Shown here: one piece after another, positions 3,256 through 39,590 of the stretch
How positions within the stretch are numbered: the first letter of the stretch is position 1
Layout: each line of letters opens with the position of its first letter
Assembly: GCF_040253635.1 (NCBI RefSeq)
Contig: NZ_JBEJGX010000003.1
Coordinates: forward strand, 682,001 to 746,000
Reading direction: 5' to 3'
Length of the DNA: 64,000 nucleotides
DNA from: Streptomyces sp. Edi2
GTDB lineage: Bacteria > Actinomycetota > Actinomycetes > Streptomycetales > Streptomycetaceae
Position numbers and translations under genes: made by a program
Notes under the pieces: model-generated
Databases searched by the model: none
What the model was told of the DNA's origin: nothing
What the model saw: the letters and a program-made list of their open reading frames with translations, nothing else

Positions 3256-3257
3256 CC

Positions 3258-3971: not shown

Positions 3972-3991
3972 CGGCCGGGCGGAGATCCGTC

Positions 3992-4249
3992 ATGGGCCTC
4001 ATCACGCAGATCCTGACGCTGCCGGTCGCCCCGGTGCGGGGCACGGTCTGGGTCCTGGACCAGGTGCTGCTCACCGCGGAGCGCGAGTACTACGACCCGG
4101 AGCCGGTGCGGGAGGAACTTGCCGCGCTGGAGCAGCAGTTGCTCGACGGAAGCATCACGACCGATGAGTTCGACTCCCGCGAGGACGAGCTCTTGGACCG
4201 GCTGGAGTGGCTGGAGGCCAACCAGCAACGACTACGTACCGACTCCTGA
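3992..4249 (+). CDS. gvpG: Gas vesicle protein GvpG
   Basis: A small protein of 85 residues starting MGLITQILTLPVAPVRG, the standard GvpG opening: a short hydrophobic segment leading into an amphipathic helix. The rest is acidic and strongly helical (VREELAALEQQLLDGSITTDEFDSREDELLDRLEWLE), consistent with a coiled coil. GvpG is a minor assembly protein thought to work with GvpF/L. It sits 20 bp after gvpF and 27 bp before gvpY. A longer upstream frame overlaps gvpF out of frame and is not real. Confidence 0.9.
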   Translation: MGLITQILTLPVAPVRGTVWVLDQVLLTAEREYYDPEPVREELAALEQQLLDGSITTDEFDSREDELLDRLEWLEANQQRLRTDS

Positions 4250-4276
4250 TCACGGGGAGAACGAGGTGTACGAGAG

Positions 4277-6347: not shown

Positions 6348-6401
6348 CCCGTCCCGACCGCATCCGCGACCGCGACCGCGACCGCACAGACGAGGCTGAT
6401 C

Positions 6402-6827
6402 ATGTCCGATTCACTGGCCGGCCGTATGGGGCCTTCCTCCGGTCCGTCCCCGTACGGCCGGCAGGGGGCTTCCGCCAACCTGGCCGACATCCTGGAGCGC
6501 GTCCTCGACAAGGGCGTCGTCATCGCGGGTGACATCCAGATCAACCTGCTCGACATCGAGCTGCTGACCATCAAGCTCCGGCTGCTCGTCGCCTCCGTCG
6601 ACAAGGCCAAGGAGATGGGCATCGACTGGTGGGAACACGACCCCTCCCTTTCGTCCCGCGCCCGCGCACCGCAGCAGATCCCGGACGGGCGACGGCCGGC
6701 CGTCGCCGGTGACTCACTGGCCGAGGAGAACCAGCAGCTGCGCGCCGAACTGGCCGAACTGCGCGCGGCCATCGGCTCCCCCCAGGGCTCCGGCGCGCAG
6801 CAGGCAGATCGTAAGGAGGAGCAGTGA
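6402..6827 (+). CDS. gvpJ: Gas vesicle protein GvpJ
   Basis: A GvpA-family minor structural protein of 141 residues. The GvpA-like core is residues 27-82: LADILERVLDKGVVIAGDI, then INLLDIELLTIKLRLLVAS, then KAKEMGIDWWEHDP. The WWEHDP ending is typical of GvpJ/GvpM and absent from GvpA. Residues ~107-131 (LAEENQQLRAELAELRAAIG) form a short coiled coil. GvpJ-type proteins are thought to shape the vesicle tips. GAGG lies upstream of the ATG, and the stop overlaps the gvpL start. Confidence 0.9.
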   Translation: MSDSLAGRMGPSSGPSPYGRQGASANLADILERVLDKGVVIAGDIQINLLDIELLTIKLRLLVASVDKAKEMGIDWWEHDPSLSSRARAPQQIPDGRRPAVAGDSLAEENQQLRAELAELRAAIGSPQGSGAQQADRKEEQ

Positions 6828-7810
6828 ACCGCCCCACGCAACAAGCCGAGGAGACCGCTGCCTCGCCACTCCCCCTCGATCGGCCCGCTGATCGGCCCTC
6901 TGGTCGATCCACGGAACGATCAGCGGAACGATCCGCGGAACGATCCGCGGAACGGCCCACTGGGCGTCCCTTTGATCGGCCTGCTGATCAGCAAGAATCC
7001 GACCGCTCCCGGATCTCGTACGTCTACGCCATCGGACGGGCCGGCACCGCCCTCGAAGCGTCGGCTCCTCAGCTGACCGGGCTGCGGGACGGCCCCGTGC
7101 GCACGGTCACCGCCGGCAGCCTGACCGCCCTCGTCTCCTCCGTCCCGGCCGACGCCTTCAGCGCGGAAGGTATGAAGGCGCAGCTGGAAGACCTGACGGA
7201 GCTGGAGACGATCGCGCGGACACACCACGCCGTCGTCGAGGCCGCCTGGGCCGGCACCATGGTGCTGCCCATGCGCCTGGCCACGGTGTATCTGGACGAT
7301 GCCCGGGTGCGGGCGATGCTGGACGAGCGCGGCACCGAGCTCGATGCGCTGCTCTCCCGGCTCGAAGGCCATGCCGAACTGGGGGTGAAGGTGTACGCGG
7401 ACGCACGCGCAGCGGCCGCGGCCGGATCTCCCGCGCCGGCCCACAGGCCGGACGCCGCTGCGTCCGAAGTGAGCCCCGGCCGGGCTTACTTGCAGCAGCG
7501 GCGGGCCCAGCGCCGTACGCATCGTGATGCCTACCGCGCGGCGGGAGTCGTCGCCACCGACGTGCGGGTCCGGGTGGCCGACATGGCTCAGGACATGGTT
7601 GCGCACCGGCCGCAGCAGGGTGAACTGGCCTCCGGTGCAGGCGAGAACATCGCCAACGAGGCCTACCTGGTCCCCACGGACCGCGTCGGGGAATTCCATC
7701 GGGCCCTCAAGGGTCTGGCCGATGGCGTCCCCGGCGTACGCGTCGAGATCACCGGTCCGTGGGCCCCGTACTCCTTCGCGACACCGCCCACGGAAAGCAC
7801 AAATCCGTGA
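6824..7810 (+). CDS. gvpL: Gas vesicle protein GvpL
   Basis: A GvpF/GvpL-family protein of 328 residues. The start is GTG at 6824, overlapping the gvpJ stop (GTGA), with AAGGAGGA just upstream. The first ~62 residues are an unusual charged low-complexity region of repeated DRPA/ERSA units encoded by short DNA repeats. The conserved domain begins at ISYVYAIGRAG and includes VLPMRLATVYLDDARVRAML and the ending ITGPWAPYSFA. It is the partner of GvpF in assembly. GvpS overlaps its end by GTGA. Confidence 0.88.
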   Translation: MNRPTQQAEETAASPLPLDRPADRPSGRSTERSAERSAERSAERPTGRPFDRPADQQESDRSRISYVYAIGRAGTALEASAPQLTGLRDGPVRTVTAGSLTALVSSVPADAFSAEGMKAQLEDLTELETIARTHHAVVEAAWAGTMVLPMRLATVYLDDARVRAMLDERGTELDALLSRLEGHAELGVKVYADARAAAAAGSPAPAHRPDAAASEVSPGRAYLQQRRAQRRTHRDAYRAAGVVATDVRVRVADMAQDMVAHRPQQGELASGAGENIANEAYLVPTDRVGEFHRALKGLADGVPGVRVEITGPWAPYSFATPPTESTNP

Positions 7811-8124
7811 AGGGAAACGACCTTCAGGGGGCCGCATTCACGGATTCCTCGCACGCGGATGTCTCGCACACGGATGCCTGGCACGCGGCTGACTCACATA
7901 CGGATGTCTCGCACTCGGCTGACTCTCTTGTGACGGACCGCTCCGACGAAGAATCTCTGGCCGGGCGGCAGATTGCTCTGATCGATCTCCTGGACCGTCT
8001 CCTGAACGGCGGCGCGGTCCTTACCGGAGATGTGGTGCTGTCCATTGCCGACGTGGATCTGGTCCATATCAACCTGCGAGCGGTGATTCGCTCGATCACG
8101 CCCGACAGTCCGGCACCGTGGTGA
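7807..8124 (+). CDS. gvpS: Gas vesicle protein GvpS (GvpA-like)
   Basis: 105 residues if translated from GTG at 7807, which overlaps the gvpL stop. A second GTG at 7930 would give a shorter protein of 64 residues that keeps the whole conserved part. The core is IALIDLLDRLLNGGAVLTGDVVLSIADVDLVHINLRAVI, a GvpA-like strand-loop-strand segment. The first ~40 residues are a His/Asp/Ser-rich repeat (SHADVSHTD type) with no counterpart in the core family, which is why the later start deserves weight. It is the third GvpA-like protein of the cluster. Confidence 0.82.
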   Translation: MKGNDLQGAAFTDSSHADVSHTDAWHAADSHTDVSHSADSLVTDRSDEESLAGRQIALIDLLDRLLNGGAVLTGDVVLSIADVDLVHINLRAVIRSITPDSPAPW

Positions 8125-8231
8125 AGATCTGCATTGCGTTGCGAAGATCCGCGTTGCCGAAGACCCCGTGAACCCGCTGCCCGGCCACTCAGCTCGCTTC
8201 CTTCCCGCACCGCCCCGAGGAGAATTCCCAC

Positions 8232-8669
8232 GTGACGAGGGATACGTACGCCATGACCGATGAACCGGTGGATCCGGCCGCGCCCGTGAAGCCCGCCTTC
8301 GCGGAGGTGGCGCAGGCGGCGGCACGGGCGTTCGACCTGGTGCCGGCCGGGCCCGGGGAACACCGCCAGGGGCAGGACAGCAGCATCGCCCAACGGCTGA
8401 AGACCGACCCGGAAACGGTCGAACGCGATCTCATCAAATTGGTGCTGACCATCGTGGAGCTCTTGCGGCAGCTCATGGAGCGCACCGCACTGCACCGTGT
8501 CGACCAAGGCGATCTGAGCGAGGAGCAGGAAGAGAAAGTCGGGATGACGCTCATGATTCTCCAGGACCGTATGACGGAACTCTGCGAGCGCTACGGCCTC
8601 ACGATGGCCGACCTCAATCTCGACCTCGGCCCCCTGGGTTCCCTGCTGCCTCCTCACGACGCCGCCTGA
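8232..8669 (+). CDS. gvpK: Gas vesicle protein GvpK
   Basis: 145 residues. The conserved GvpK domain spans residues ~45-140: RLKTDPETVERDLIKLVLTIVELLRQLMERTALHRV, then LSEEQEEKVGMTLMILQDRMTELCERYGLTMADLNLDLGPLG. It is mostly helical, consistent with an assembly role. GTG at 8232 has GAGGAGA ten bases upstream; an ATG seven codons later is an alternative. It is the last gvp gene, 107 bp after gvpS. This intervening stretch carries short GCGAAGATC(T/C)GC repeats. No gvpN-type AAA ATPase occurs in the cluster. Confidence 0.9.
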   Translation: MTRDTYAMTDEPVDPAAPVKPAFAEVAQAAARAFDLVPAGPGEHRQGQDSSIAQRLKTDPETVERDLIKLVLTIVELLRQLMERTALHRVDQGDLSEEQEEKVGMTLMILQDRMTELCERYGLTMADLNLDLGPLGSLLPPHDAA

Positions 8670-8902
8670 AGTCCCCTGGCGTCCCTGACTTCGCCCGACA
8701 TCGCCTGCCGTCACATCAACAATTCCGTGAGCACCACCGACATCCCGAGCCTCTTCATCTCTCACAGGTATCACGCCATGTTTCGACACGCTTTGAGCGG
8801 CAAGACGGCATAAAAGGGCCGCAGAGCGCACCAGTTTTCCTCTCGTTCCCATGGTTTCTCCATACGCGCTCTCGCTTCGTACCGATTCGGAGGTGCAGGG
8901 AA

Positions 8903-9073
8903 ATGGTTCCGCTGCTTCTGGTTCTGCTGCTCGCGTTGCTGCTCTTCGGCGCGGGATTCGCGTTGAAGGCACTGTGGATCGTCGCCGTGGTGGTGCTGGC
9001 GTTCTGGCTGCTCGGCTTCCTGATGCGGTCGGCCGGCGCCGGCGGCCAACGCGGCCGCTGGTACCGCTGGTAG
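8903..9073 (+). CDS. Small hydrophobic membrane protein
   Basis: 56 residues, starting MVPLLLVLLLALLLFGAGFA. It has two predicted membrane helices joined by ALKALW, and a short basic, Gly- and Trp-rich tail ending RWYRW. Proteins of this size and pattern recur in Streptomyces as 'hydrophobic protein' of unknown function. GGAGG at 8889-8893 is well placed for the ATG at 8903. A 15-bp-stem terminator follows 100 bp downstream. It may be read with the gvp cluster or alone; the 233 bp between gvpK and this gene leave room for its own promoter. Confidence 0.75.
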   Translation: MVPLLLVLLLALLLFGAGFALKALWIVAVVVLAFWLLGFLMRSAGAGGQRGRWYRW

Positions 9074-9172
9074 AGCCGGCACCGCCTGGCAGGGCTGGTA
9101 CAGGCCGAGTAGAGCTGGTACCGCCGGGCAGAACGGGTACCACTGGTAGACCCGGGCCCCGCTCCCTCAACG

Positions 9173-9208
9173 TCCCCGGCGGGCCGATCCCCTTCGGCCC
9201 GCCGGGGA
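9173..9208 (+). terminator. Hairpin terminator
   Basis: A perfect inverted repeat with 15-bp arms (9173-9187, 9194-9208) and a six-base loop, TCCCCGGCGGGCCGA against its complement. It lies downstream of the small hydrophobic gene and upstream of the oxidase gene. Confidence 0.8.
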
Positions 9209-9358
9209 ACGGTATTTCCTGACGGGCATTGCAACTGATGGCCCGTCACCTTACTCTTCCGGCACATCCCCACCGCACCGGGGCGCTCGTACGGTCTCAC
9301 CCCTACGATCCGTGCGCGGTGCAGCGGGGCCGGCGCGCCGCGCGCCGGAGGGACAGCC

Positions 9359-11062
9359 ATGTCCGACGACAGCGCTCGAAGAGCTTCCTTCACCCGCCGC
9401 ACGCTGCTGACCGGGGCCGCCGCCGCGGGACTCACCGCAGCAACCGGGCTGCAGCCCGCGCATCGCATCCCCGTGGGCAGCGCCGCGGCCACCCTCGACC
9501 CTCCACCCGACTTCCCTGCGGACATCCCGCTCTCCCAGCAGGCCTTCCGGAACTGGTCGTTGGAGATCGTCGTCGAGGGCGTATGGACGGCCTCGGCCCG
9601 TACCCCCGACGATGTGGTCACCCTCGCCAACTGGGCTCATCAACACGGCTACCGGCTACGGGCCCGGGGCAAGGGCCACACCTGGTCGCCGCTGGTGGTG
9701 CCATCCGGGGCCGACACCAACCGGACGGTCATCGTCGACACCACCTCCCACCTCACCGCGGTCAGTGTGCGCGGCGGCGGCCCGGGGAGTGTCACCACGC
9801 AGACGGGGGCGACACTCGACACCATCCTCGCCCGCCTGGAGGAAGCAGGGCTCGGACTCGCCACCACTACCGCGCCCGGCGACCTCACCATCGGCGGGGT
9901 GCTCGCCATCGGCGGCCACGGCACGGGTCTGCCCACCGCTACCGAACGCCCGCCCGCGGGCTCCGGCTTCGGCACGCTGAGCTCCCTGGTCACCTCCCTC
10001 ACCGCCGTGGTGTGGAGCGCGGCCGAGAGCCGCTATGTGCTCAAGACCTTCACCCGTTCCGACCCGGACATCCGCGCCTTCCTCGTCCACCTGGGCCGCG
10101 CCTTCCTTACCGAGGTGACGATGACCGCGGCCGCCAACACGCGGCTGCGCTGCCAGAACTGGTTCGATGTGAACGTGGGCACCGTCTTCGGCCCGCCCGG
10201 CACGGGCGGCCGCACCCTCGGCTCCTACCTGGACCGCACCGGACGCATCGAGGCGATCTGGTTCCCGTTCACCGATGTGCCGTGGCTGAAGGTGTGGAGC
10301 CTGGCGCCCAGCAAGCCGCTGCTCGCCAAGCAGATCGACGCCCCGTACGCGTACACCTTCGCCAACCGGGTCACCGAGGAGATGTCGGGGCTGCTCGGGG
10401 AGATCGCCGCGGGCGGGGGCGACAAGACGCCTGCCTTCACCAAGCTCGCCATGTCCATCGTCGGATCCGGGCTGATCGTCACCGGTACATGGGACGTCTG
10501 GGGCTGGTCGAAGAACAGCCTGCTGTACGTCGAACCGACGACGCTGCGGATCGTCGAAGCGGGGTGGGCGGTGCTGACCTCCCGGGCGAATGTGCAGCGG
10601 GTGGTAGGGGACTTCTACGCCCGCTACCAAAGCGTGCTGACGGCACATCAAAACCGTGGCTCCTACCCGGTCAACGGTCCGATCGAGCTGCGTATCACCG
10701 GCACGGACCCCCTGGACGGCCCCCTTCTGTCCCCGGCGCGAGCGCGTGCGGACCACCCCGAGTGGGACACCGTGGTGTGGCTCGACTTCGCCACCTATCC
10801 CGGCACGCCCGGCGCGGGGCCCTTCTTCCGCGAGCTGGAGCAGTGGATCTGGCAGACCTACACCGGTTCGTACGCGTCCGTACGTCCCGAGTGGTCCAAG
10901 GGTTGGGCCTATACGGACAGCGGGCCGTGGACGGACCCGGCCGCAGTGGGCGGCACCGTCCCGGCCGCATTCGAGGACTGGCGCACCGCCCGGGACATCC
11001 TGAACTCCTACGATCCGGCACGGGTGTTCTCGAACGCCTTCCTCGACACGCTGCTGCCCTGA
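9359..11062 (+). CDS. Tat-exported FAD oxidase, cholesterol-oxidase (VAO) type
   Basis: 567 residues. The N-terminus carries a twin-arginine signal (FTRRTLLTGAAAAGLTAATG) and a likely cleavage region near residue 45, so the folded flavoprotein should be exported. Residues ~60-250 form the PCMH-type FAD-binding domain, with LRARGKGHTWSPLVVPSG, GGVLAIGGHGTGLP and a beta-rich core. The remainder resembles the substrate-binding domain of the covalent-FAD cholesterol oxidase (BCO2) of the vanillyl-alcohol oxidase family. The family oxidises 3-beta-hydroxysterols to 3-keto products with release of hydrogen peroxide. The exact substrate cannot be read from sequence. Possible His attachment of FAD lies in the GHG region. 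The gene stands alone, converging on capA. Confidence 0.85.
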   Translation: MSDDSARRASFTRRTLLTGAAAAGLTAATGLQPAHRIPVGSAAATLDPPPDFPADIPLSQQAFRNWSLEIVVEGVWTASARTPDDVVTLANWAHQHGYRLRARGKGHTWSPLVVPSGADTNRTVIVDTTSHLTAVSVRGGGPGSVTTQTGATLDTILARLEEAGLGLATTTAPGDLTIGGVLAIGGHGTGLPTATERPPAGSGFGTLSSLVTSLTAVVWSAAESRYVLKTFTRSDPDIRAFLVHLGRAFLTEVTMTAAANTRLRCQNWFDVNVGTVFGPPGTGGRTLGSYLDRTGRIEAIWFPFTDVPWLKVWSLAPSKPLLAKQIDAPYAYTFANRVTEEMSGLLGEIAAGGGDKTPAFTKLAMSIVGSGLIVTGTWDVWGWSKNSLLYVEPTTLRIVEAGWAVLTSRANVQRVVGDFYARYQSVLTAHQNRGSYPVNGPIELRITGTDPLDGPLLSPARARADHPEWDTVVWLDFATYPGTPGAGPFFRELEQWIWQTYTGSYASVRPEWSKGWAYTDSGPWTDPAAVGGTVPAAFEDWRTARDILNSYDPARVFSNAFLDTLLP

Positions 11063-29131: not shown

Positions 29132-29313
29132 TTACCGCGGTTGAAGGAACTCCCGTGCCCCACGCAACCGTGTGTGTACGCGCCTCTGTGTGGCACTGCT
29201 GTCGAGGCGGACGTCGAGCGCCCCGGGCACCGGGCTGTCGGCTCGACGCCCGGCAGGCAGCCGGGTTGCGTCGAGTCCGTCGCGCCGAGCGATGAGAACG
29301 CCGAGTTCATAGC
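29132..29313 (-). pseudogene. RmlD-like sugar-nucleotide reductase, 3' fragment
   Basis: Read leftward from the CATAGC repeat, the frame gives Tyr-Glu-Leu-Gly then VLIARRDGLDATRLPAG, then ADSPVPGALDVRLDSSATQ, and ends REFLQPR and TAA at 29132. This is the C-terminus of the RmlD/NAD-epimerase-like reductase whose N-terminus is at 37117-37765. The two parts join at Ser-Arg-Tyr/Glu-Leu-Gly with no lost or gained base when the 7.8-kb element is removed along with one CATAGC. As it stands this part has no start and is not expressed as a useful protein. Confidence 0.88.
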
Positions 29314-29338
29314 TTCCCTGATGCTTGAGCGTGTTCAA
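29308..29338 (+). repeat. Left end of transposon: CATAGC plus terminal repeat
   Basis: CATAGC (29308-29313) is followed by TTCCCTG, 11 bases, and TGTTCA. The right end, read on the other strand, has the same pattern with the same spacing. Confidence 0.85.
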
Positions 29339-29357
29339 GCGTCAGTGGAGGTAGCAG

Positions 29358-30376
29358 TTGAGTACGTGGCAAGTGGTGCGGGTACCGGATCCGGGCCGGT
29401 GGGGGACGCTCCCCGCTGAGGGGGTTATGGGGGTGCGGGATCTGCCCGAGGCGGTTACCCGGATCGGTCTCAAACCGGGTGATCCGGTGTTCGTTCGGCC
29501 GGAGGACCGGGAGGCGGCGGCGTTCACGAAGCTGTTCCGGTGGGGCGATGTACGCCCGCTGCCGGTGGACGTGTCGCGGCAGGAGGACCGGGCGGCGGAC
29601 TCGGTCAGTTCGCGGGTGTCGTGGCTGACGCCGCGAACCCGGGGCCTGTGGTCCGACGTCGGTCTGCGCGGCCACACCCGTGCTGGTTTGCCAGCGCCAG
29701 GGGGGATTCCCGGACGGAGATGCGGAACACGAGCTTTGTTCAGCTGCTGCTGTCCTCGGCCCTGAGGCGGCAGGAGGGCGGGTCGTTGCTGACGTTCGAG
29801 CTGCCGACCCAACGTCTTCGGCACGGGCGATATTGCCATGGCCGAACAGCCGGTGCCGTGAGGCGGTCGAAGAACAGCCGCGTGTTCTACGCCACGGTGG
29901 ACGCGGTCGGGCAGGTCGAGGTCTACATCCAGTCCGAGCGGGCTTGGGCAATCCAGCGAGCACAGGCAGCGGGCCGTTACGAGCGGCTGCCGGTGATGCG
30001 GCTTATCACTCGGGTGACGAATGGGCGGCACCCGACGGTGGAGTGGGTGGACCGGAACGGTGTCGCCGGTGCTCGGGAGCTGAGCCGTCTGGGCTGGATG
30101 GACCGGCAGTCACTGTTTCTGGAGGGGGCAGAGGGGCCGGAGCCTGCTTATCTGTGGCTGACGGAGCAGGGTCTGCCGATGGCACCTGAGCGGTGGAACG
30201 GGGTGTTCATGACCGCGAACCTGCGCTGCGAGGAAACGTTGCTCACCGAGGAGGAGCGGAAGATCACCCGGGACTTCCGGCTTGCGGAGGTGCTGGGGAA
30301 GTCTCCGTAGGCGACGCCGCATTCTGCTCGGCACTCGGCGGCGCTCTATTTGCTGATCGTGCTGAATGGGCGGGCA
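29358..30376 (+). pseudogene. Tyrosine site-specific recombinase, multiply mutated
   Basis: Starts with TTG at 29358 and GGAGG eight bases upstream (MSTWQVVRVPDPGRW). After VRPEDREAAAFTKLFRW a core-binding segment of about 50 residues appears to be deleted compared with the family as I know it. At 29700-29705 a run of six G shifts the frame, and the family sequence continues in the next frame (DSRTEMRNTSFVQLLLSS, FYATVDAVGQVE, GRYERLPVMRLITRV). At 30308-30310 a TAG replaces the expected Tyr codon, and directly after it the catalytic box ATPHSARHS still reads in frame up to about 30376. So it carries three separate lesions: deletion, frameshift and nonsense. Confidence 0.82.
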
Positions 30377-30410
30377 ATCCCCATAGCCCGAACGTCTCTG
30401 CCATCCGACG

Positions 30411-30848
30411 CCCGAGCACCTCAAGTTCGACAACAAGCACGCCCACCTGGTCCTGGGCCGCCACCCCGTCCTGCTGCCGCCAAGGCTCGCCGAACTCCTC
30501 CGTCAACTTGCCGAACAGCCTCAGCTGCGGCCGCTGCTCTCGCGAGTTCACCCAGGGCCTCGGTGGCTCTTCCCGGGCATGGTCCCGGGCAAGCCGATCT
30601 CGACGCACGGCATGACCCAGAAGCTGGGCCGCCATGGCATCCCGGTTCGCACCGCGCGTAACGCGGCGCTGGCTGCTCTCGCTGCTGATCTCCCCAGCCC
30701 GATCCTCGCCGACGTGACCGGGATGCACCGCCACACCGCACTCCGCTGGGTCGCCTACGCCCGACGCGACTGGGCCGAGTACCTCGCCGCACGAGCTGAG
30801 GACGAGGCGAACAAGCGGAAGAAGAGAGGCACCGACGAAAGTCGCTGA
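30411..30848 (+). pseudogene. Second recombinase, 3' fragment
   Basis: The frame is open from about 30411 (HLKFDNKHAHLVLGRHPVLL) and has no start or N-terminal half. It contains WLFPGMVPGKPIS, then GRHGIPVRTARNAAL, and LADVTGMHRHTALRWV with ARRDWAEYLA, matching the C-terminal part of the second type of integrase often paired with the first in actinobacterial elements. The catalytic Arg region (RTARNAAL) is degenerate, as is usual for this type. It ends in a Lys/Arg-rich tail at 30848. A small in-frame ATG at 30579 is not a credible start. Confidence 0.7.
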
Positions 30849-30990
30849 CCTTGGGCTGCGCAGGACTTCAGAGAGATCGTTTCCCGCGGTGCCCGGCCAT
30901 TCTCCCGCAGCCGAGGGGAACAGGTTGGATGGCGGTCGACAGCGCGGGCCTGGGAGAAGCCGGCTGGCTTCGGGTGTGCGCTCCCGTTCG

Positions 30991-31690
30991 TCAGGCGGAT
31001 ACGGCACCGACCAGGCCGCCGTCGATGACGAGGTCCTGGCCGTTGACGTAGGAGGCGTCGGACGAGGCGAGGAATGCCACCGCTGCTGCGATCTCCTCCG
31101 GCTGTCCGAAGCGGCCTGCGGCGATCCGGTCGGTCAGCGCCTTCGTCTCCGCCGCGCTCAGTGCGGCGGACGGGTACATGGGGGTGTCGATGTACCCGGG
31201 GCTGATGGAGTTGACGCGCATGCCGCGCGGGGCGAGTGCGGCGGCGAGGGTCCGGGCCAGGTTGTGCACGGCGGCTTTGGTCGCCGAGTACAGGGTGAGG
31301 ACGCTGTTGCCCCGGTGGATGGTCCACGATGCGTTGATGACGATCGAGCCTCCGTCCGCCAGCAGTGGCAGTGCCTTTGGGGCGGTGAAGAACACCCCCT
31401 TGAAGTTGATACGCCGTGGTCGAAGTCAGGCTCGGCGATCTTGTCGAACGGCAGGAACGTGCCGGTGCCCGCGTTCGCGAAGAGGCTGTCGAGACGGCCG
31501 TGACGGTCGCGGACCGTCTCCATCAGCGCGTCCACCGCGGCGAGGTCGGCGGCGTCGGCCACGACTCCCGAGGCGTTGGGGCCGAGCTGCTGGACGACGG
31601 TGTCCACTCGTGCGCGGGTGCGGCCGGTGACGATGACGTGAGCGCCTTCGGTGATGAGGCGGTGTGCGGTCGCCAGGCCCATGCCGCTAG
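30991..31690 (-). pseudogene. Short-chain dehydrogenase (SDR-A), main part, interrupted
   Basis: Leftward from the CTAG at 31687-31690: SGMGLATAHRLITEGAHVIV, then LDSLFANAGTGTFLPF, then a frameshift near 31410, then FKGVFFTAPKALPLLADGG, the catalytic LYSATKAAVH (Tyr-x3-Lys), SPGYIDTPMY, and GQDLVIDGGLVGAVSA to the stop. The missing N-terminus, MNRFTGKTVLITGG, lies at 33905-33951. Joining them at CTAG gives ITGGTSGMGLATAH without any change. The gene was therefore an ordinary NAD(P)-dependent dehydrogenase of about 240 residues, third in an operon with the hydrolase and oxidoreductase. It now has both an insertion and a frameshift. Confidence 0.87.
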
Positions 31691-32005
31691 GGTCTGTTGC
31701 GAAAGTGCTGGTTACATCCACTCGTTGAGGATTGCGAGCAGCACGGTCGCCCTGTAGAGGACTGCGAGCTTGTCGTACCTCGTGGCTGGAGCCCGGAGGC
31801 GCTTGAGGCGGTTGATCCCGCACTCGACCGCGTGCCGCTGCTTGTAGTCGTCCTGGTCGAACTTGGGCGGCCGTCCACCTCGCCATCCGCGCTTGAGGCG
31901 GTTGCGGACGCGGTTCGTCGGGACCTTGATCCGCTTGCTTGGAGTGCACTCCACGGCCATAGCGTTGAGACATCGGAACCGAAACCCCACGCGTCGACGC
32001 ATCAT
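31691..32005 (-). mobile_element. IS5-family fragment with transposase C-terminus
   Basis: The end GGGTCTGTTGCGAAAGTG begins directly next to CTAG, and looks like the terminus of IS5-type elements. The minus-strand frame gives [20 protein letters not shown], then [19 protein letters not shown] and ends at 31712, the C-terminal part of an IS5-family transposase (the ExxxxRR/K region). The catalytic N-terminal half and the other IS end are missing. CTAG fits the YTAR-like target preference reported for part of the IS5 family. Confidence 0.72.
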
Positions 32006-32033
32006 CCCGCACGATCAACTGAAAAGACGGCAA

Positions 32034-32828
32034 GTGGTAGACAACCAATTCACAACGCATGCAGAACTTTTCGATCTGCGTGGAAAGCGCGCGCTCGTCA
32101 CCGGTGGCACCCGAGGCATCGGAATGATGATCGCGCGTGGCCTTCTCCAGGCGGGCGTCCGCGTGGTCATCAGCTCACGCAACGCAGAAGCGTGCGCTCA
32201 GGCGCAGGAACAGCTTTCCACATTTGGTGAGGTGTGGGCCATCCCCGCCGACCTGTCCCGCCACGACGAGTGTCGGCGACTGTCCGACCTCGTCACCGCC
32301 GACTCGGAGCGTCTCGATATCCTCGTCAACAACGCGGGCGCCATGTGGGACGAGCCGCTGGCGACGTTCCCAGACGCGGCCTGGGACACGGTCGTCGACC
32401 TCAACCTGAAGTCGCCGTTCTGGCTGGTCCAGGCGCTGCTGCCCGCACTTCGCAGGGCGGGTACCGCCGACGATCCCGCGCGGATCATCAACATCGGTAG
32501 CATCGCCGCCATCCACGTCCCCCAGCGGCCCAACTACTCGTACTCCAGCAGCAAGGCCGCACTGCATCAACTCACCAGAGTGCTCGCCAGGGAACTAGGA
32601 CCGCAGCACGTCACCGTGAACGCCGTGGCGCCGGGGGCGTTCCCGTCGGCGATGATGGCTGCAACCCTCGATGAGTTCGGCGAGGCGATCGCGGCGTCGG
32701 CCCCGCTACGCCGGATCGGCCGTGACGACGACATGGCGGGTGTCGCCGTGTTCCTCGCCAGCCGGGCAGGCGCATACCTAACGGGCGCCGTGATCCCCGT
32801 CGACGGCGGCATCGCCACAACCGCGTAG
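32034..32828 (+). CDS. Short-chain dehydrogenase/reductase (SDR-B)
   Basis: 264 residues if started at GTG 32034 (VVDNQFTTHAELF); the ribosome-binding site is weak, so the start is uncertain. All classical SDR motifs are present: ALVTGGTRGIG (cofactor loop), ILVNNAGAMWDEP, active Ser region IINIGSIAAIH, Tyr-x3-Lys in NYSYSSSKAALHQ, and C-terminal TGAVIPVDGGIA. It is an intact gene inside the 2.2-kb insertion, oriented opposite to SDR-A and only distantly similar to it. It lies between an IS5 fragment and an IS481-type element, so it was probably brought in from elsewhere. Substrate unknown. Confidence 0.85.
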   Translation: MVDNQFTTHAELFDLRGKRALVTGGTRGIGMMIARGLLQAGVRVVISSRNAEACAQAQEQLSTFGEVWAIPADLSRHDECRRLSDLVTADSERLDILVNNAGAMWDEPLATFPDAAWDTVVDLNLKSPFWLVQALLPALRRAGTADDPARIINIGSIAAIHVPQRPNYSYSSSKAALHQLTRVLARELGPQHVTVNAVAPGAFPSAMMAATLDEFGEAIAASAPLRRIGRDDDMAGVAVFLASRAGAYLTGAVIPVDGGIATTA

Positions 32829-32833
32829 GCCGC

Positions 32834-33787
32834 CTAGGTGTGTTGTCCGGAGAGGTTGGTGACGCGGCTGGCTGGGGTGTGGCCGCTGATTCCGGTGTGG
32901 GGTCGGTGGTAGTTGTACCAGTCGAGCCAGTCGGGAAATGCGGCTTGGCGTTCGGCGTCTGAGGTGTAGGGCTGGTGGTAGGCCCATTCGTCGAGCAGGG
33001 TGCGGTGGAAGCGTTCGACCTTGCCGTTGGTCTGTGGGCGCCAGGGTCGTGTCCAGCGCGGTTGTATGCCCAGGTCGCGGCAGGTCTGGCGCCAGGTGTT
33101 CTTGCTGTAGGCCCAGGCGTTGTCGGTCAGCACACGCTCGACGGTGATCCCCCGGGCGGCGAACCAGGCCATGGCCCGCGTGAGGAAGCTCGCGCAGGTG
33201 GCCGCCTTCTCGTCGGGGAGGTCTTCGGTGTAGGCGAGTCGGGTGTGGTCGTCCAGAGCGGTATGGAGGTAGGCGAGTCCGGCGCCGGTGCGGTTCTTGC
33301 GGCCGGCGGCCCGGCCGAGGGCTTTGTGGCCGCCGCCGTCGGGGATGCGGCCGAGTTTCTTGACGTCGATGTGGACCAGTTCGCCGGGGCGGGCGCGTTC
33401 GTAGCGGCGGACGGGTTCACCGGTGGCCCGGTCGGTGGCGGCCAGCGGCGGCAGGCCGTGGCGCCTGAGGATGCGGTGGGCGGTGGAAGCTGCGACACCG
33501 GCACGGACGGCCAGCCGCAGCGGGCCGATCCGGTGCTCGCGTCGCATGCGGACGACCTCGTCCTCCACCGCTGCGGACGTGCGGTGAGGCTGGTGGTGGG
33601 GCCTGCTGGAGCGGTCCTTCATCCCCGCATGACCATGACGTTGGTAGCGGCCGGCCCAGCGTGCCGCTGTCGTGTGGCTGACCTGGAACCGTTCCGCGGC
33701 CCGGCGCAACGGCCAGCCGTCATCGACGACGCACCGGGCCAGACGCAGCCTGCCGGTCGGCGTCAGCGGGGCGTTACGGTGGATCAC
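32834..33787 (-). CDS. IS481-family transposase
   Basis: 317 residues from GTG at 33787, chosen because AGGAGG lies just upstream and it starts with the family-typical VIHRNAPLTPTGRLRLARCV. An N-terminal helix-turn-helix (WPLRRAAERFQVSHTTAARW) is followed by the DDE integrase core: D in VHIDVKKLGRIPD, D in LTDNAWAYS, and E in NGKVERFHRTL. It ends RVTNLSGQHT. The stop codon TAG lies in the flanking CTAG, outside the element proper, so the element takes its stop from the target site. It appears intact and could be active. Confidence 0.9.
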   Translation of the reverse strand: MIHRNAPLTPTGRLRLARCVVDDGWPLRRAAERFQVSHTTAARWAGRYQRHGHAGMKDRSSRPHHQPHRTSAAVEDEVVRMRREHRIGPLRLAVRAGVAASTAHRILRRHGLPPLAATDRATGEPVRRYERARPGELVHIDVKKLGRIPDGGGHKALGRAAGRKNRTGAGLAYLHTALDDHTRLAYTEDLPDEKAATCASFLTRAMAWFAARGITVERVLTDNAWAYSKNTWRQTCRDLGIQPRWTRPWRPQTNGKVERFHRTLLDEWAYHQPYTSDAERQAAFPDWLDWYNYHRPHTGISGHTPASRVTNLSGQHT

Positions 33788-33904
33788 GAGGGCCTCCTGG
33801 CATCGGTGCAGACTTCGCAATCCACACCGAAACCAGAAGGCCCTCCCTCTTTCAAGCACCCTGAGAGGCATGTCGCCTGTCACCAACGTCCCGGGACAAC
33901 ACAC
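32838..33904. mobile_element. IS481-family insertion sequence
   Basis: 1067 bp. Ends are inverted: GTGTGTTGTCC at 32838 and its complement GGACAACACAC ending at 33904, with a further matching GTTGGTGAC inside each end. It is flanked by CTAG on both sides (32834-32837 and 33905-33908), a 4-bp target duplication. It contains a single intact transposase gene. Both ends and the gene look functional. Confidence 0.9.
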
Positions 33905-33951
33905 CTAGTGCCGCCGGTGATGAGGACGGTCTTCCCGGTGAAGCGGTTCAT
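33905..33951 (-). pseudogene. SDR-A, 5' fragment
   Basis: Only 47 bp: ATG at 33951 then NRFTGKTVLITGG and Thr-Ser across CTAG. The ATG overlaps the stop of the hydrolase gene (ATGA), showing it was the next gene in that operon. It is the start of the dehydrogenase whose remainder is at 30991-31690. Confidence 0.85.
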
Positions 33952-34940
33952 GCCGATGCTCCCGTCAGGGTGCGCGTGATGTGGTCGGTGAGGTGGGGCA
34001 GCCAGTCGGCCCGTGCGTCGCCGAGGAGGTGGTCGCCGTGCGGTACGGACAGATAGGTGCCGTGCGGTGCCAGACGGGCCAGCGGCTCGCCGTTCGTCAC
34101 GCCGGGTATGACGTCCTGACCCCCGTCCACGACCAGCAGCGGGGCCGCGATACGGGGTGCCAGGGCAGAGAGGTCCACCTGGCGGACGAACGCGTGTGCA
34201 GCGTCGGGGCCGCCGGTGCGTCGGGCCATGATGTCCCGTACCGGCGGGGGCAGTTCCTCCCAGTCGAGGCGGAAGGGGCCGCTGACGGTTGCGGCCGCGG
34301 CCACGCGCGGCTCAAGCGCCGCGGTCCGGGCCGCGAAATAGCCGCCCAGACTCAGGCCGACGAGCCCGATGCGTGCGACGCCGAGGGCATCGATGACCCG
34401 GCCCACGACCTGCTCGTAGTCCGGACTGAAGGTTGTCGTGGCCGCGAGCACGCCCTGCCCGGGCCCGTCCATCGCGAACACCGCAAGCCCTCTGGCCAGC
34501 AGTGCGGAGGCCAGATCGAGGAACTCTTCCTTGGCCGAGTCCAGGCCGGGGACGACGACCACGGTGCCGGGAGCGTCGGCGGGGCCGCGCAGCCAGCCGG
34601 TGAATCCTTCACCGCTCACACGTCGGGCGCCGGGCTCCAGCGCAGTGAGTGCTCTGCTCAAGGCGTGGTCGGCCTCGACGGCGGCACGGCTTGCCTGCGC
34701 GTACGGCGTGAGCGTGGCGAGGTGGAACCACCGGGCCGCCATCAGCAGATGTTCCCCCGCGGAGACGGACGATCCCGCCTTCTCCGCGCGCTCCAGATAG
34801 GCGTGTCCGGTGCGCAAGAAGGACGCCTCCCAGTCGGCGACGGAGGTGAGGCCGTCGGTCACGCGCCGGTACTCGTGGGGGTCGACGCCCGCGCCGGTGG
34901 CGCGTGTCCACTGGGCGGCGGCGAACTCGGCGATGCTCAT
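33948..34940 (-). CDS. Alpha/beta hydrolase
   Basis: 330 residues. The nucleophile S197 is in the elbow GLSLGGYFA; the acid lies in VVDGGQDVIPG and the His in PHGDHLL. A helical N-terminal part of ~115 residues precedes the fold (WFHLATLTPYAQASRAAVEA), and VVVPGLDSAKEEFLDLA and AMDGPGQG follow. This layout matches the family of 2,6-dihydroxy-pseudooxynicotine hydrolase and FrsA-like enzymes, some of which cut C-C bonds. It overlaps the oxidoreductase gene upstream and SDR-A downstream (both ATGA), so the three were one coupled catabolic or detoxifying operon. Substrate unknown. Confidence 0.88.
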   Translation of the reverse strand: MSIAEFAAAQWTRATGAGVDPHEYRRVTDGLTSVADWEASFLRTGHAYLERAEKAGSSVSAGEHLLMAARWFHLATLTPYAQASRAAVEADHALSRALTALEPGARRVSGEGFTGWLRGPADAPGTVVVVPGLDSAKEEFLDLASALLARGLAVFAMDGPGQGVLAATTTFSPDYEQVVGRVIDALGVARIGLVGLSLGGYFAARTAALEPRVAAAATVSGPFRLDWEELPPPVRDIMARRTGGPDAAHAFVRQVDLSALAPRIAAPLLVVDGGQDVIPGVTNGEPLARLAPHGTYLSVPHGDHLLGDARADWLPHLTDHITRTLTGASA

Positions 34941-35857
34941 CGTGTTGCTCCTGTTGTCAGTACGGCCCTGCCGCGTATCCGGCGCTCCCGCAAGTCGACC
35001 AGCGTGTCGGCGGTCTCCGCCCAGGCGGCGATCCGGCCGATCTCCGGGTGCAGCCGCTCCTGCTCCACGAGACGTACCAGGGCTGCGAGGTCGGAGCCGT
35101 AGGGGGCACCGGCGTAGTGGAAGTGCTGGATCGTGACGCGCTCGGGCCCGCTCAGCAGTTGGAAGAAGTCGAGGGTCACCGGCGTGCGGCTTGCCTGGCC
35201 GAACCAGACGAGCAGCCCGCCGGGGCGCACCTTGGCCAGGGCGACCGGCAGATCCGGCCCGCCCGCAGACTCCAGCACGACGTCGAATGGTCCTTGAGCC
35301 GCCGCGACGTCGTGCACCACCTGCGCGCCCAGCTCCGCGAGCCGCTCGCCGCGAACCGGCGTGGCCGTGACCGCGGTCAGCTCGGCCCCAGCACCGACGG
35401 CCAGTTCGGTGACGTAGTGGCCAACCCCGCCCGCGGCGCCGGTCAGGAGCACCCGCCTGCCTGCCAGGGAACCGGCCGTACGCAGCAGGCGCAGGGCGGT
35501 GATCCCGGCCAGGGGCAGGGCTGCCGCCCGTACGCTGTCGATACTGTCCGGGAGCACCGCGAGCGAGTGCGTAGGCACGGCGGCGTACTCGGCCCAGCCG
35601 CCATGCGGCGGATGTCCGACCACACGGGTGCCGATGCCGGGCCCCGAGCCGTCGGCCGCCGCCTGCACGACGAGCCCCGCGATGTCCTTGCCGGGCAGCA
35701 TCCCCGGCCGGGGGTTTTCGAGGAGGAACGTCTCGCCCCTGTTCGGTGCGAACGCCTCGACCTTGACCAGTGCCTCACCGGGCTCCGGGACGGGCTGGGG
35801 AACCTCGGCGAAGGCGACGGGACGCGCCGCTTCCCCTGTAGGGATCAGTCTTTGCAT
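34937..35857 (-). CDS. Zinc-independent quinone/NADP oxidoreductase (MDR family)
   Basis: 306 residues from ATG at 35857 (MQRLIPTGEAARP). GGAGG is present but about 13 bases away, so the start is moderately sure. N-terminal GroES-like domain with PEPGEALVKVEAFAPNRGE and PGKDIAGLVV; Rossmann domain with VLLTGAAGGVGHYVTELAVGAG. The zinc ligands of alcohol dehydrogenases are absent, as in quinone oxidoreductases. First gene of the operon with hydrolase and SDR-A; divergent from the lysR gene, with a palindrome in the 89-bp space between. Confidence 0.9.
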   Translation of the reverse strand: MQRLIPTGEAARPVAFAEVPQPVPEPGEALVKVEAFAPNRGETFLLENPRPGMLPGKDIAGLVVQAAADGSGPGIGTRVVGHPPHGGWAEYAAVPTHSLAVLPDSIDSVRAAALPLAGITALRLLRTAGSLAGRRVLLTGAAGGVGHYVTELAVGAGAELTAVTATPVRGERLAELGAQVVHDVAAAQGPFDVVLESAGGPDLPVALAKVRPGGLLVWFGQASRTPVTLDFFQLLSGPERVTIQHFHYAGAPYGSDLAALVRLVEQERLHPEIGRIAAWAETADTLVDLRERRIRGRAVLTTGATR

Positions 35858-35913
35858 GCCGAGAATGCAACCTCCACGGCAGCCCGGTGATCCAACAACG
35901 CACACGCACAGCC

Positions 35914-35930
35914 GACAACTCTTAGTTGTC
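35914..35930. promoter_or_regulatory. Palindromic operator between oxidoreductase and lysR
   Basis: GACAACT-CTT-AGTTGTC, a perfect inverted repeat with 7-bp arms and 3-bp spacer, 17 bp before the lysR start and 57 bp before the oxidoreductase start. Likely the binding site of the adjacent LysR protein. Confidence 0.6.
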
Positions 35931-35946
35931 ACCTATGGTGGGAGCC

Positions 35947-36891
35947 ATGGATCTCGACGTGCCACAGGTACGCGCCTTCGTGCGAGCCGCCGAGGAACTG
36001 CACTTCGGTCGGGCAGCAGGGACGCTCGTCATCTCCCAGCAGGCGCTGTCCAAGAGGATCGCGAGGCTGGAATCCCTGCTCGGCACCGAGCTGTTCCAGC
36101 GCGGCGGCAACGGGGTACGCCTCACCGAGGCCGGACAGCGTTTCCTCCCGCCGGCCCGGCAGACCCTGGCCGCCGCCGACGCCGCGGTCGCGGCGGCGGT
36201 CGGCAAGCACCGTCCACTGCGCGTCGATGTCTGGGGGCACCTCTACGCACCGATGCGGACACTGGCCCAGGTCGCCGGACAAGCCGGGGACCTGGCGCTG
36301 GGGCACGGGCGCGACCTGCCGTCGGTGATGACGGCACTGCTGCACGGCGACATCGACGCGGCCTTCGGCCGGGTCCACCCCCCGCTGCGCTCCGGCCTTG
36401 CACACCGCCTCGTGCGCCTCGAGCCGGTGGACGCCGTACTGAGTACGGACCATCCGCTCGCAGCCGAACCAGCACTGCGACCTGACCAGCTGAGCGACAG
36501 CGTGCTGTGGGCACCCGGTGAACTGGACCGGCTCGACTTCCTGCACCGGTTCGCCGACCGATTCGACATCCGAGACACAGCCACGAGCGTCAACCTGGGC
36601 CTCGCCCACTTCCTCGCCGAGGTGGCGCAAGACCCACGACGCTTCTCGCTGCTGCCCGCCGACGCGCCACTGCCGGAGATCCCGGGGCTGCGCTCCGTCC
36701 CGCTGGTCAACCCCACGCCGCTGTATGCCTGGTCGCTGCTGTGGCGCGCCGGCAACGGACACCCGGGACTGAGCGACCTCACCGCCGTCTGCGCCACCGA
36801 AGCAGGGCAACGCCGTTGGTTGGAGTACGACCCGGCTCGCGACTGGCTGCCCGAACCGCCCGCGAACCGCGCCTCCTGCAAGGAGCATTGA
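35947..36891 (+). CDS. LysR-family transcriptional regulator
   Basis: 314 residues from ATG at 35947, with GGGAG just upstream. The helix-turn-helix occupies residues 1-60: VRAFVRAAEELHFGRAAGTL, then ISQQALSKRIARLESLLG and LFQRGGNGVRLTEAG. The effector-binding domain is less conserved, with VDVWGHLYAPM, LLHGDIDAAFGRVH and LSDSVLWAPGELD. It is divergent from the oxidoreductase-hydrolase-SDR operon and shares a palindromic site with it, so it should regulate those genes, with an unknown ligand. It is the last intact gene before the right end of the transposon. Confidence 0.9.
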   Translation: MDLDVPQVRAFVRAAEELHFGRAAGTLVISQQALSKRIARLESLLGTELFQRGGNGVRLTEAGQRFLPPARQTLAAADAAVAAAVGKHRPLRVDVWGHLYAPMRTLAQVAGQAGDLALGHGRDLPSVMTALLHGDIDAAFGRVHPPLRSGLAHRLVRLEPVDAVLSTDHPLAAEPALRPDQLSDSVLWAPGELDRLDFLHRFADRFDIRDTATSVNLGLAHFLAEVAQDPRRFSLLPADAPLPEIPGLRSVPLVNPTPLYAWSLLWRAGNGHPGLSDLTAVCATEAGQRRWLEYDPARDWLPEPPANRASCKEH

Positions 36892-37019
36892 GCAGTGCTG
36901 CCCCAAGTGCGTCGTCTCCCACCGTGCGCAAACTTGGCCCGGACACCTTTCGTTGGTGTCCCCGTCGCGGACAACGTCGTCCCATTTCGACCGCCGAACC
37001 GCTGACTGCTCCACCTACA

Positions 37020-37055
37020 GAGCCGCCCCGGCCACCTTCACCACCGGGGCGGCTC
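37020..37055 (+). terminator. Hairpin terminator after lysR
   Basis: Arms GAGCCGCCCCGG (37020-37031) and CCGGGGCGGCTC (37044-37055) with a 12-base loop. It lies just inside the right end of the element and would stop transcription leaving it. Confidence 0.75.
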
Positions 37056-37090
37056 CTCTGCGTCTCGGGCCCCCAGAGCACCCCACAGAA

Positions 37091-37122
37091 TCTGAACAGA
37101 TGAACTTGACAGGGAACATAGC
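37091..37122 (-). repeat. Right end of transposon: CATAGC plus terminal repeat
   Basis: Read on the minus strand from CATAGC (37117-37122) inward: TTCCCTG, 11 bases, TGTTCA, the same pattern and spacing as the left end. Confidence 0.85.
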
Positions 37123-37765
37123 GGCTGAGGGCGTCCGCTCCGGCGAGGTGGAATATCCCGGCCTGGTCGGAGCAGGCGAGTTGCCGCAGAGCGGAGGCCA
37201 GATCTTCGACGTGCTCTGGGCAACGGATGTCGTCGGTGAACAGGACACCGTCGTGTGCCTCGGCAGCCAGGGCATGGACCATACGCTCGTGTACGGATGT
37301 GCCCTGCCCGAGGATCAATGAAATGCGTGCGACTGCGGCGGTCGGCGCGAAGAGGCGAACAGCCGTCTCGGCGGTGGCCTTTGCCGCGCCATACGGGGTG
37401 ATCGGGTCAGGTGAACAGGTCTCGTCGTAGTGAATCCGCGCACCGGAGAACACGGCGTCGCTGGAGACATGGACCAGGCGGCAATCGCGTGGCGTCGTGG
37501 CCATCGCCACACGGATCGAACCCTCGGCGGTGACCGCCCAGTCGCTCCCCCCGCTCGTTGCGTTGATGACGGCACCGGGGGCAACCGCGGCCAGCACCTC
37601 GTCGACCTGCCCGGTGGCGCGGAGGTCGAGTGGGTACCAGGAGGCTCCGGGGATGGTTCCGGGGCGGGAGCAGTACGTTGCGGCTGTCTCCCAGCCCGCA
37701 GCCGTGGCCTGGCGCACCAGTTCCGTCCCCAGGAACCCGCTGCCGCCGATGATCAGGACCTTCAT
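37117..37765 (-). pseudogene. RmlD-like sugar-nucleotide reductase, 5' fragment
   Basis: ATG at 37765: MKVLIIGGSGFLGTELVRQA (Rossmann cofactor loop), INATSGGSDWAVTAEG, LVHVSSDAVFSGARIHYDE, the catalytic TPYGAAKATAE (Tyr-x3-Lys), and CPEHVEDLASAL. It is in frame up to HLAGADALSRY, then enters the transposon, where the frame continues with unrelated sequence. The 3' part is at 29132-29313. The family includes dTDP-4-dehydrorhamnose reductase and related epimerases. The catalytic residues lie in this half, but loss of about 60 C-terminal residues should inactivate it. Confidence 0.88.
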
Positions 37766-38147
37766 GGCGCCCTACGGTAGGGCAGCTTGAGCAGTCCACG
37801 CCGTTCACCCGGTCCATGCAGTCCGCCCGGTGGCCCGAACGCACCCGCCCGGGTGGGCCGTTGCGATCGCTCACCGCACAGAACCTCTGCGCATGACCAC
37901 TGCGCATGAGCGACACGGGTAACCGTCCCGGCGCACGTATTCCTGGATCATGCAGCGGTCGGAGGGCGTGCGGAGGCGCGGGAGGGCGCGGTTCGCGTCG
38001 TTCCGGGGATTGTGGCTTCTGAATGCGAGGCCGCCCCCTTTCACGCTGTACCGAGATGATCTCCGGTCTGTTTGGCTTGGTGACGCACGGCCACTTTGTT
38101 CACCACTGGCCGCATTGCTCACTTCTGTTCACGTCCCGGGAGGGAAT
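37766..38147. other. Intergenic region upstream of the encapsulin operon
   Basis: 382 bp between the divergent reductase fragment and encapsulin. No gene supported. Two copies of CTGCGCATGA (about 37887 and 37901), and TTGTTCACC/CTGTTCACG near 38097 and 38126, are candidate regulatory repeats. The second pair is 25-50 bp before the encapsulin start. Confidence 0.45.
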
Positions 38148-39590
38148 GTGTCCGTACCGGACAGCGTCACCGGATCCGCTGCCGAGGAGCCCGCTCTCGA
38201 ACCACCCGCAGACAGCACACTCACCAGCCTCAGTACCCGGGCCGCGCGCCAACTGGCGACCACCACCAAGTCCGAGCCCCAGATGCAGGCCATCACCTCA
38301 CGGTGGCTGCTGAAGATGCTGCCGTGGGTGGACGTCAAGGGCGGCACCTACCGGGTCAACCGGCGTCTGCAACTCCGTGTCGGCCGGGGGCGTGTCCAGT
38401 TCGAGCAGAACGGCGCGGACGACATCAAGGTGATCCCCCAGACGCTCACGGAGCTGCCCGCCCTGCGCGGTTACGACGATGCCGAGGTGCTGAAGGAGCT
38501 CGCGGGCCGCTTCCGTGTCCGTGAAGTCCGGGCCGGCCAGGTGCTCTTCGAGGCAGGGCAGCCTGCCACCGAGGCGTATCTCGTCGTCCACGGCCGGTTC
38601 GCCCGCTACACGGTCGGCAAGTACGGCGAGGAGGAGGTCATCGGCGTCGTCACGGACGGCGACCAGATGGGGGACGAGGCGATCGGGCGGCCCGACCCGC
38701 TGTGGTTGAGCTCGGTGCGGGCCGAGACGGCCGGCGTGCTGATGGTGCTGCCCTGGGACGTGATCCGGGAGTTCACCGACCGGGTGCCGTCGCTGGCCGC
38801 ACACCTGGCGGCGTTCGCGGAGCGCCAGCAGCGTCCCGCGAACCGCAGGGGCGAGGCGGAGGTGCCGGTGGCTGCGGGGCACGTCGGCGAGCCGACGCTG
38901 TCCGGTGGCTTCGTCGACTACGACCTCGCCCCGCGCGAGTACGAACTCTCCCTGACCCAGACCGTGCTCCGGGTGCACAGCCGGGTCGCCGATCTCTACA
39001 ACGAGCCCATGGACCAGACCCAGCAGCAACTCCGGCTCACCGTCGAGGAGATCCGCGAGCGCCAGGAATGGGAGATGGTCAACAACCGGGAGTTCGGGCT
39101 GCTGCACAACGCCGACTACGGCCAGCGCATCAGCACCTACACGGGCCCACCCACCCCCGACGACATGGACGAGCTGTTGTCCATGCGCCGCAAGACCCGG
39201 CTGTTCCTGGCCCACCCGAAGGCGATCGCCGCCTTCTTCCGGCAGTGCAACAAACGCGGTCTGGTGCCGGGCACGGCGAACGTCGACGGGCATGAGGTCC
39301 CCGCCTGGCGCGGTGTCCCGATCTTCCCGTGCGGCAAGATCCCGATCAGCGACGCGAACACCAGCAGCATCATTGCGCTGCGTACCGGCGAGGCGGACCA
39401 GGGGGTCGTCGGCCTGCACCAGACCGGTATCCCGGAGGAGTTCCAGCCCGGTCTGAACGTCCGCTTCATGGGCGTCGACGACGCCGCGATCATCAAATAC
39501 CTGGTCACCGCCTACTACTCGATGGCCATCCTCGTGCCCGACGCGGCCGGAGTCCTGGAGAACGTCCAGATCGGCCGGAGCACCGACTGA
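38148..39590 (+). CDS. Family 2B encapsulin shell protein
   Basis: 480 residues from GTG at 38148, with GGGAGGGA ideally placed; a longer upstream frame is non-coding. Residues 1-45 are probably flexible. Residues ~45-105 begin the HK97-type shell fold ([25 protein letters not shown]), which is interrupted by a cyclic-nucleotide-binding domain (~108-225, [21 protein letters not shown] and QMGDEAIG). The shell fold resumes to the end ([21 protein letters not shown], then [15 protein letters not shown] and GVVGLHQTG). Such proteins used to be called Crp/Fnr regulators. They assemble into icosahedral shells that package terpene cyclases such as 2-methylisoborneol synthase, encoded next. Confidence 0.9.

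Follow-up and report, generated by a model that had tools for sequence, protein, structure and literature searches.

What kind of element splits the rmlD-like gene of Streptomyces sp. Edi2, and by what route might it have come to lie there? The question was addressed in a 64,000-nucleotide stretch of this genome (assembly GCF_040253635.1, contig NZ_JBEJGX010000003.1, positions 682,001 to 746,000), hereafter called the window, in which a 7,803-bp element occupies positions 29314-37116 within the gene. Comparison with related loci (L numbers; G numbers denote genomes of the genus) revealed conserved ends, uninterrupted target sites, a 6-bp crossover segment and host 6 bp that are kept at the end away from the recombinase genes. 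Taken together, the window very probably holds a defective member of a cargo-carrying, site-selective tyrosine-recombinase (YR) transposon family of Actinomycetota, in which the host 6 bp lie operon-distally and for which a circle and one-strand route is proposed. The insertion and its target comprise the following features (aa, amino acids).

29132..29313, minus strand: rmlD-like target gene, C-terminal part; joined frame of 274 aa, through which 11 orthologues run
29308..29313, unstranded: CATAGC, the crossover segment of 6 bp on the operon side (left end), with an identical copy at 37117-37122
29314..29337, plus strand: left end TTCCCTGATGCTTGAGCGTGTTCA; consensus of 32 elements TTCCCTgaTGatT.agcGtGTTcAaGC
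37093..37116, minus strand: right end TTCCCTGTCAAGTTCATCTGTTCA, starting at 37116; consensus of 32 elements TTCCCTGTCAAGTtcttcTgtTcag
37117..37122, unstranded: CATAGC, crossover segment of 6 bp at the right end, matching the left copy
37123..37765, minus strand: rmlD-like target gene, N-terminal part (PF04321, 8.9e-33)

The initial annotation had described a discrete 7.8-kb element with CATAGC at both junctions and inverted TTCCCTG-N11-TGTTCA ends, whose removal together with one CATAGC restores the gene without loss of a base. Both statements hold: the joined frame of 274 aa is unbroken, with the RmlD_sub_bind domain (E 8.9e-33) in its N-terminal part. The flanking repeat is exactly 6 bp long and the adjoining bases differ. 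Exact matches to the inverted end pattern in the 9.8-Mb genome were confined to the two ends of the element; with up to one mismatch, six genome sites were found, compared to four for a reversed control pattern. The 274-aa protein was matched at E ≤ 1e-40 in 55 of 199 genomes of the genus, and in all 11 orthologues that were read base by base the codons run uninterrupted through the insertion site, the natural 6-mers there being CGTGGC, CATGGC, CATGAC, CGTGAC and CGTAGC. These orthologues are the empty-site counterparts of the insertion. In genome G025, an identical right end (L069, position 1139) lies at the identical codon of that genome's own, 60%-identical rmlD gene, next to the 6-mer CGTGAC; no left end of this second rmlD insertion was found within about 60 kb.

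At E ≤ 0.001, the fragment of recombinase gene A left in the window matched 48 of these 199 genomes, and 21 of the 48, the own genome included, matched at E ≤ 1e-40. Intact relatives carry, just inside the left end, four genes, A (510-533 aa), B (about 577 aa), C (about 715 aa) and D (about 136 aa), followed by variable cargo, and both end motifs recur beside these intact operons, so that related elements end at the same motifs as the one in the window. A scan with two peptide patterns of C, covering one genome per species (84,980 species), gave 215 loci, of which 80 were kept; every kept locus is actinobacterial by title, Streptomyces, Kitasatospora, Lentzea, Actinoplanes, Nocardia, Nonomuraea, Streptosporangium, Mycobacterium, Amycolatopsis and others being represented, and 70 of the 80 matched all four genes within the stretch of sequence covered. 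A phylum survey, in which each genome among the matches listed had two candidates scored, gave at least 2 of 396 genomes that reached E ≤ 1e-20.

A and C contain complete YR catalytic motifs, C with an invariant R364 and the remaining motif. B has an invariant Asn268 at the inferred place of the first arginine; judged from its structural model, B has a recombinase fold and a degenerate active site, and it seems to lack this arginine. A search of PDB sequences with A gave XerD at E 0.0045 and two others above 0.1, and the same search with B or with C gave no match. At E ≤ 0.01, no Pfam family was assigned to B in 44 of 44 members. The search for B relatives gave 604 proteins among 7,994 candidates scored; among the best 120 of the 604, those with names are mostly called 'hypothetical protein' and a few 'Integrase'. 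Given the lack of a Pfam family for B and the uninformative names of most of its relatives, such elements will probably escape annotation. D, a small and helical protein and possibly a DNA binder, matched scattered coiled-coil families in Pfam, including DUF6262 in 2 of 42 members.

The end motifs were surveyed in 102 loci (20 and 80 loci, the window and L069), which yielded 39 loci and 32 distinct elements with both ends. The two end 6-mers were identical in 18 of the 32 elements; 11 elements had one to three mismatches between them, and three had four to six. L113, which gave no match to gene A and whose left end is probably spurious, is counted among the 32 and in the last group. As a control, left and right 6-mers of unlike pairs were identical in 1.4%, and an outward shift gave 0 of 32. 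The 6-mers vary among elements (CATAGC, CGCCAC, CAGCGC, CACCAC, CGCTCC, GGCGGC and others), which indicates that they come from the targets. As read from the sequences, the 6 bp is the crossover segment and not a plain target duplication. The crossover region proposed in the initial annotation thus survives, with the amendment that the two 6-mers need not be identical.

Recurrent targets include rmlD-like, PNKP-like kinase, VanX-like dipeptidase, GFA, yifB/comM, comEC, SNF2 helicase and other genes; the names are readings of translations, RmlD alone having been tested against Pfam. The gene read as yifB/comM is a repeated target, hit at one codon in L037, L109, L150, L110, L114 and L117. In Acinetobacter, comM is reportedly also an island site for unrelated Tn7-like elements.

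The equal flanks of the window element carry no information on polarity. For elements with unequal 6-mers, the 6 bp were masked and the flanks were aligned to uninterrupted orthologues, in which the native 6-mer was read (yifB, 17; SNF2, 13; comEC, 20 of more matches; PNKP, 20; rmlD, 11 of 55 genomes). The numbers of orthologues in which the right 6-mer was closer, the two tied, or the left was closer were as follows.

L037: 16/1/0 of 17
L109: 16/1/0 of 17
L163: 10/3/0 of 13
L053: 20/0/0 of 20
L160: 20/0/0 of 20
L179: 18/0/0 of 18
L144: 4/0/0 of 4
L177: 5/0/3 of 8, the three being gap-shifted
L055: 6/0/0 of 6
L051: 2/0/0 of 2
L146: 1/0/0 of 1
L166: 0/0/1 of 1
L039: 8/0/12 of 20, both 6-mers being natural

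In L054 the insertion lies in a short tandem repeat, the other copies of which show, by eye, that the right 6-mer is the native one. With L054 included, the host 6 bp lie at the operon-distal end and the foreign 6 bp on the operon side in 12 of the 13 informative elements. L045, L102, L142 and L161 were left unused, as no orthologous site spanning the junction was found for them, and the data for L037 and L053 were filled in with the trend already visible, by adding DNA in which the right-end motif was then found. A possible 45-kb element between L050 (1788) and L280 (7767), with the 6-mers CTGTGT and GTGTGT, stands outside the polarity count; the pairing of its ends is presumed.

Left 6-mers differ among insertions at one yifB site (CTCAAC in L037, CTCCAC in L110, CGTTAC in L114 and GGTGAC in L117; the right ends of the last three were not found). 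This variety suggests that the element picks up its transferred 6 bp on the donor's right side instead of inheriting them on the left. For 3 of 18 elements (0.27 expected), the left 6-mer is identical to the one native to a different known site, namely a kinase site for L054, an SNF2 site for L055 and a PNKP site for L045, which hints that the foreign 6 bp may come from another site.

We infer the following route from these insertions. The four proteins A-D would assemble on the two ends, with roles for B and D that are likewise conjectural, and the element would leave, or be copied out, as a circle in which 6 bp from the site it last occupied separate the two ends. On entry into a matching site, one strand would be exchanged across the 6-nt stagger, and replication would then fix the circle's 6 bp on the operon side and those of the host on the far side. 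If this is true, genomes could be read backwards, as the operon-side 6 bp could tell where a copy came from.

Several points weigh against this interpretation. L166 leans the opposite way, on a single short orthologue and by five versus four of six bases; L039 was set aside as uninformative, its left 6-mer being matched in 12 of 20 orthologues and its right one in the other 8. L051 is judged on two orthologues and L146 on one, and L037 and L109 were judged on the same yifB loci, as were L053 and L160 on the same comEC loci. Circle, excision and transposition are all deduced from insertions. For B, the best Foldseek match was Cre at E 0.11, which is not significant, and VIA-align 2 re-aligns Foldseek's own list; residues R399 and Y421 fall in a low-confidence stretch (398-422) of the B model. 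For D, the best PDB match in Foldseek stood at E 1.0. The likeness to the SE and GInt systems, which are compared below, is a likeness of layout and published description.

The copy in the window contains the following features between its ends.

29358..30367, plus strand: recombinase A pseudogene with an internal deletion, a frameshift and a truncated 3' end; intact A (about 510 aa) matches here, in overlapping tblastn hits, with its residues 1-75, 125-190 and 192-412
30386..30848, plus strand: remnant resembling the C-terminal end of a long Tn554-like tyrosine recombinase that belongs to a different element; 39% identity to the C-terminus of the 814-aa protein nested in L054, 87% to L034
30991..31395, minus strand: short-chain dehydrogenase, C-terminal piece (broken cargo; PF13561, 3e-36, profile positions 109-235 of 236)
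31712..32005, minus strand: DDE-transposase-like fragment adjoining the broken dehydrogenase cargo (PF01609 only, at E 0.016, below the cut-off)
31863..32828, plus strand: second short-chain dehydrogenase open reading frame (ORF), domain from about residue 75 (PF13561, 4.4e-54)
32834..33904, minus strand: IS481-type transposase (PF13683, PF00665, PF13011), interpreted as having inserted into the cargo later
33948..34940, minus strand: alpha/beta hydrolase, cargo (PF12146, PF00561)
34937..35932, minus strand: zinc-type alcohol dehydrogenase/quinone reductase, cargo (PF00107, PF08240)
35926..36891, plus strand: LysR-type regulator, cargo (PF00126, 2e-19; PF03466, 2.7e-10)

Of genes A-D, the window yielded pieces of A alone by tblastn, the last of them ending at residue 412 (full length about 510). 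In the own genome, the A query had no further match at E ≤ 0.001, C-like sequence was limited to one remote 103-residue piece, and no intact copy of the element was found; the NCBIfam VPA1267 family had no match in this genome, the controls likewise having none anywhere. By its sequence the window copy is a relic with a broken recombinase gene, and as it has no working A-D genes it would be immobile unless helped in trans. The link to tyrosine-recombinase genes at one end, made in the initial annotation, survives; the gene itself is broken, and the second piece (30386-30848) was rejected as a gene of this element, since it matches a Tn554-like recombinase of a different one.

Two relatives carry further elements inside gene A. 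At the HxxRH codons of L046 lies another, divergent element of four genes (about 2860-9823), with ORFs of 505, 571, 788 and 218 aa (starts uncertain) and, by eye, GGCATT on both sides. In L054 (3368-8251), a separate two-gene Tn554-like element (375 and 814 aa) has entered close to the codon of the active-site tyrosine. It seems that genes for recombinases themselves serve as targets for other elements of this kind. Beyond the target gene of the window, the adjoining ORF at 37950-39590 presumably resembles a cyclic-nucleotide-binding encapsulin shell protein.

An even split of host 6 bp between the two ends is predicted by conventional two-strand integration, as in integrative and conjugative elements and in the published model of GInts (genomic islands with three integrases), in which the exchange involves both strands, each 6-mer begins as a heteroduplex and either can be fixed at either end. 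The unequal 6-mers and the site preference fit this explanation, and GInt circles are described with attI variants of both kinds (PMC5385486). However, the 12 of 13 observed depart from an even split (two-sided sign test, about 0.003, with elements treated as independent), and we regard two-strand integration as unlikely. A DDE transposon that moves by cut and paste, leaves a simple target duplication of 6 bp and carries the recombinase genes as cargo would account for the identical 6-mers of 18 elements and for the IS481-type transposase in the window, but 14 of the 32 elements (L113, with its probably false left end, among them) have unequal 6-mers while the adjoining target sequence is intact, the A-D operon is what relatives share beside the end, and no transposase ORF recurs, by reading, across ten listed elements. 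Plain DDE duplication was rejected on the unequal 6-mers, which already contradict it, and this explanation is scarcely credible.

The strand-biased circularizing integrative elements (SEs) SE-6283 and SE-6945 resemble the new family in having, at one end, a four-gene operon for a catalytic YR, a non-catalytic YR-fold protein, a larger catalytic YR and a small protein; the published layout is intA-tfp-intB-srap (PMC10214605). Also alike are the 6-bp spacer (in the new family seen from insertions), the few preferred sites and cargo that is sometimes a copy of the target gene. In a tblastx comparison of cargo with target, which gave mostly noise, L051 and L115 alone were convincing, the element carrying a homologue of the disrupted gene (GFA in L051, an MFS-like transporter in L115); SE-6283 is reported to carry bcp, likewise a copy of the disrupted gene (PMC9345347). 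A true actinobacterial branch of the SEs, with all four genes homologous in sequence, would explain the similar gene order, roles, spacer and site preference (PMC10214605, PMC9345347) and the cargo of L051 and L115. In contrast, the new family belongs to the Actinomycetota and has TTCCCTG... ends, and its foreign 6 bp lie on the operon side (attL) instead of at attR: in SE-6945, attL, proximal to intA, carries the attB 6 bp and attR those of the donor (PMC9345347, PMC10214605), an arrangement that is reversed in 12 of the 13 informative elements. Moreover, a PSI-BLAST search by the SE authors gave no Tfp or Srap homologues beyond Gammaproteobacteria (PMC10214605), and one intact A had no match to NCBIfam GmtY at E ≤ 1, GmtY being our guess for an SE recombinase. 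Such a branch is a tentative alternative, rather doubtful on present grounds.

GInts (ginABCD) share with the new family three YR-type proteins and a small protein, variable cargo, a 6-nt stagger and site preference. They differ in that the protein lacking the first arginine is the third (GinC), whereas here it is the second (B) and the third (C) has the full motif. GInts are described with imperfect direct repeats of 10-17 nt, and the main text of that paper mentions neither Actinobacteria nor Streptomyces (PMC5385486). Tn554 and its relatives have a long and a shorter YR, a TnpC-like small protein and a 6-bp footprint (PMC10214605), and, as in Tn554, the new family has 6 bp foreign to the target at one end; however, Tn554-related elements are without a counterpart of B/Tfp, whereas here B stands between A and C. 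The actinobacterial Tn554-related recombinases are of about 350 and 611-828 aa, with no B-like gene mentioned in the available text (PMC3414803). RIT (recombinase in trio) elements also have three adjacent recombinase-like genes and inverted ends. Their three proteins are described as 315-410 aa long (archetype), all with the catalytic tyrosine, with 34-bp terminal repeats (PMC10214605), and membership in RIT was rejected on the about 510, 577 and 715 aa of the new proteins and the fourth gene, D.

In the open-access literature, as far as its available text extends, no description of an actinobacterial four-gene SE/GInt-like family was found; nearest to it is the class of actinobacterial elements related to Tn554 (PMC3414803). 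How Tn554, SEs and GInts transpose is unsettled, and SEs are reported from Gammaproteobacteria only (PMC10214605). With its many actinobacterial members, its clean ends, uninterrupted orthologues for about ten target sites and a reversed one-sided 6-bp transfer, the new family offers an independent system for testing single-strand, copy-out/copy-in transposition by tyrosine recombinases. With some reserve, we favour a distinct actinobacterial four-protein lineage whose one-strand polarity would be opposite to that of SEs (and, according to the SE authors, of Tn554): the circle would take the operon-distal host 6 bp and deposit them on the operon side at the next site, so that each copy records its last address. 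On the best reading, the closest fit is an actinobacterial SE/GInt/Tn554-like family with a one-sided transfer of 6 bp that mirrors that of the SEs.

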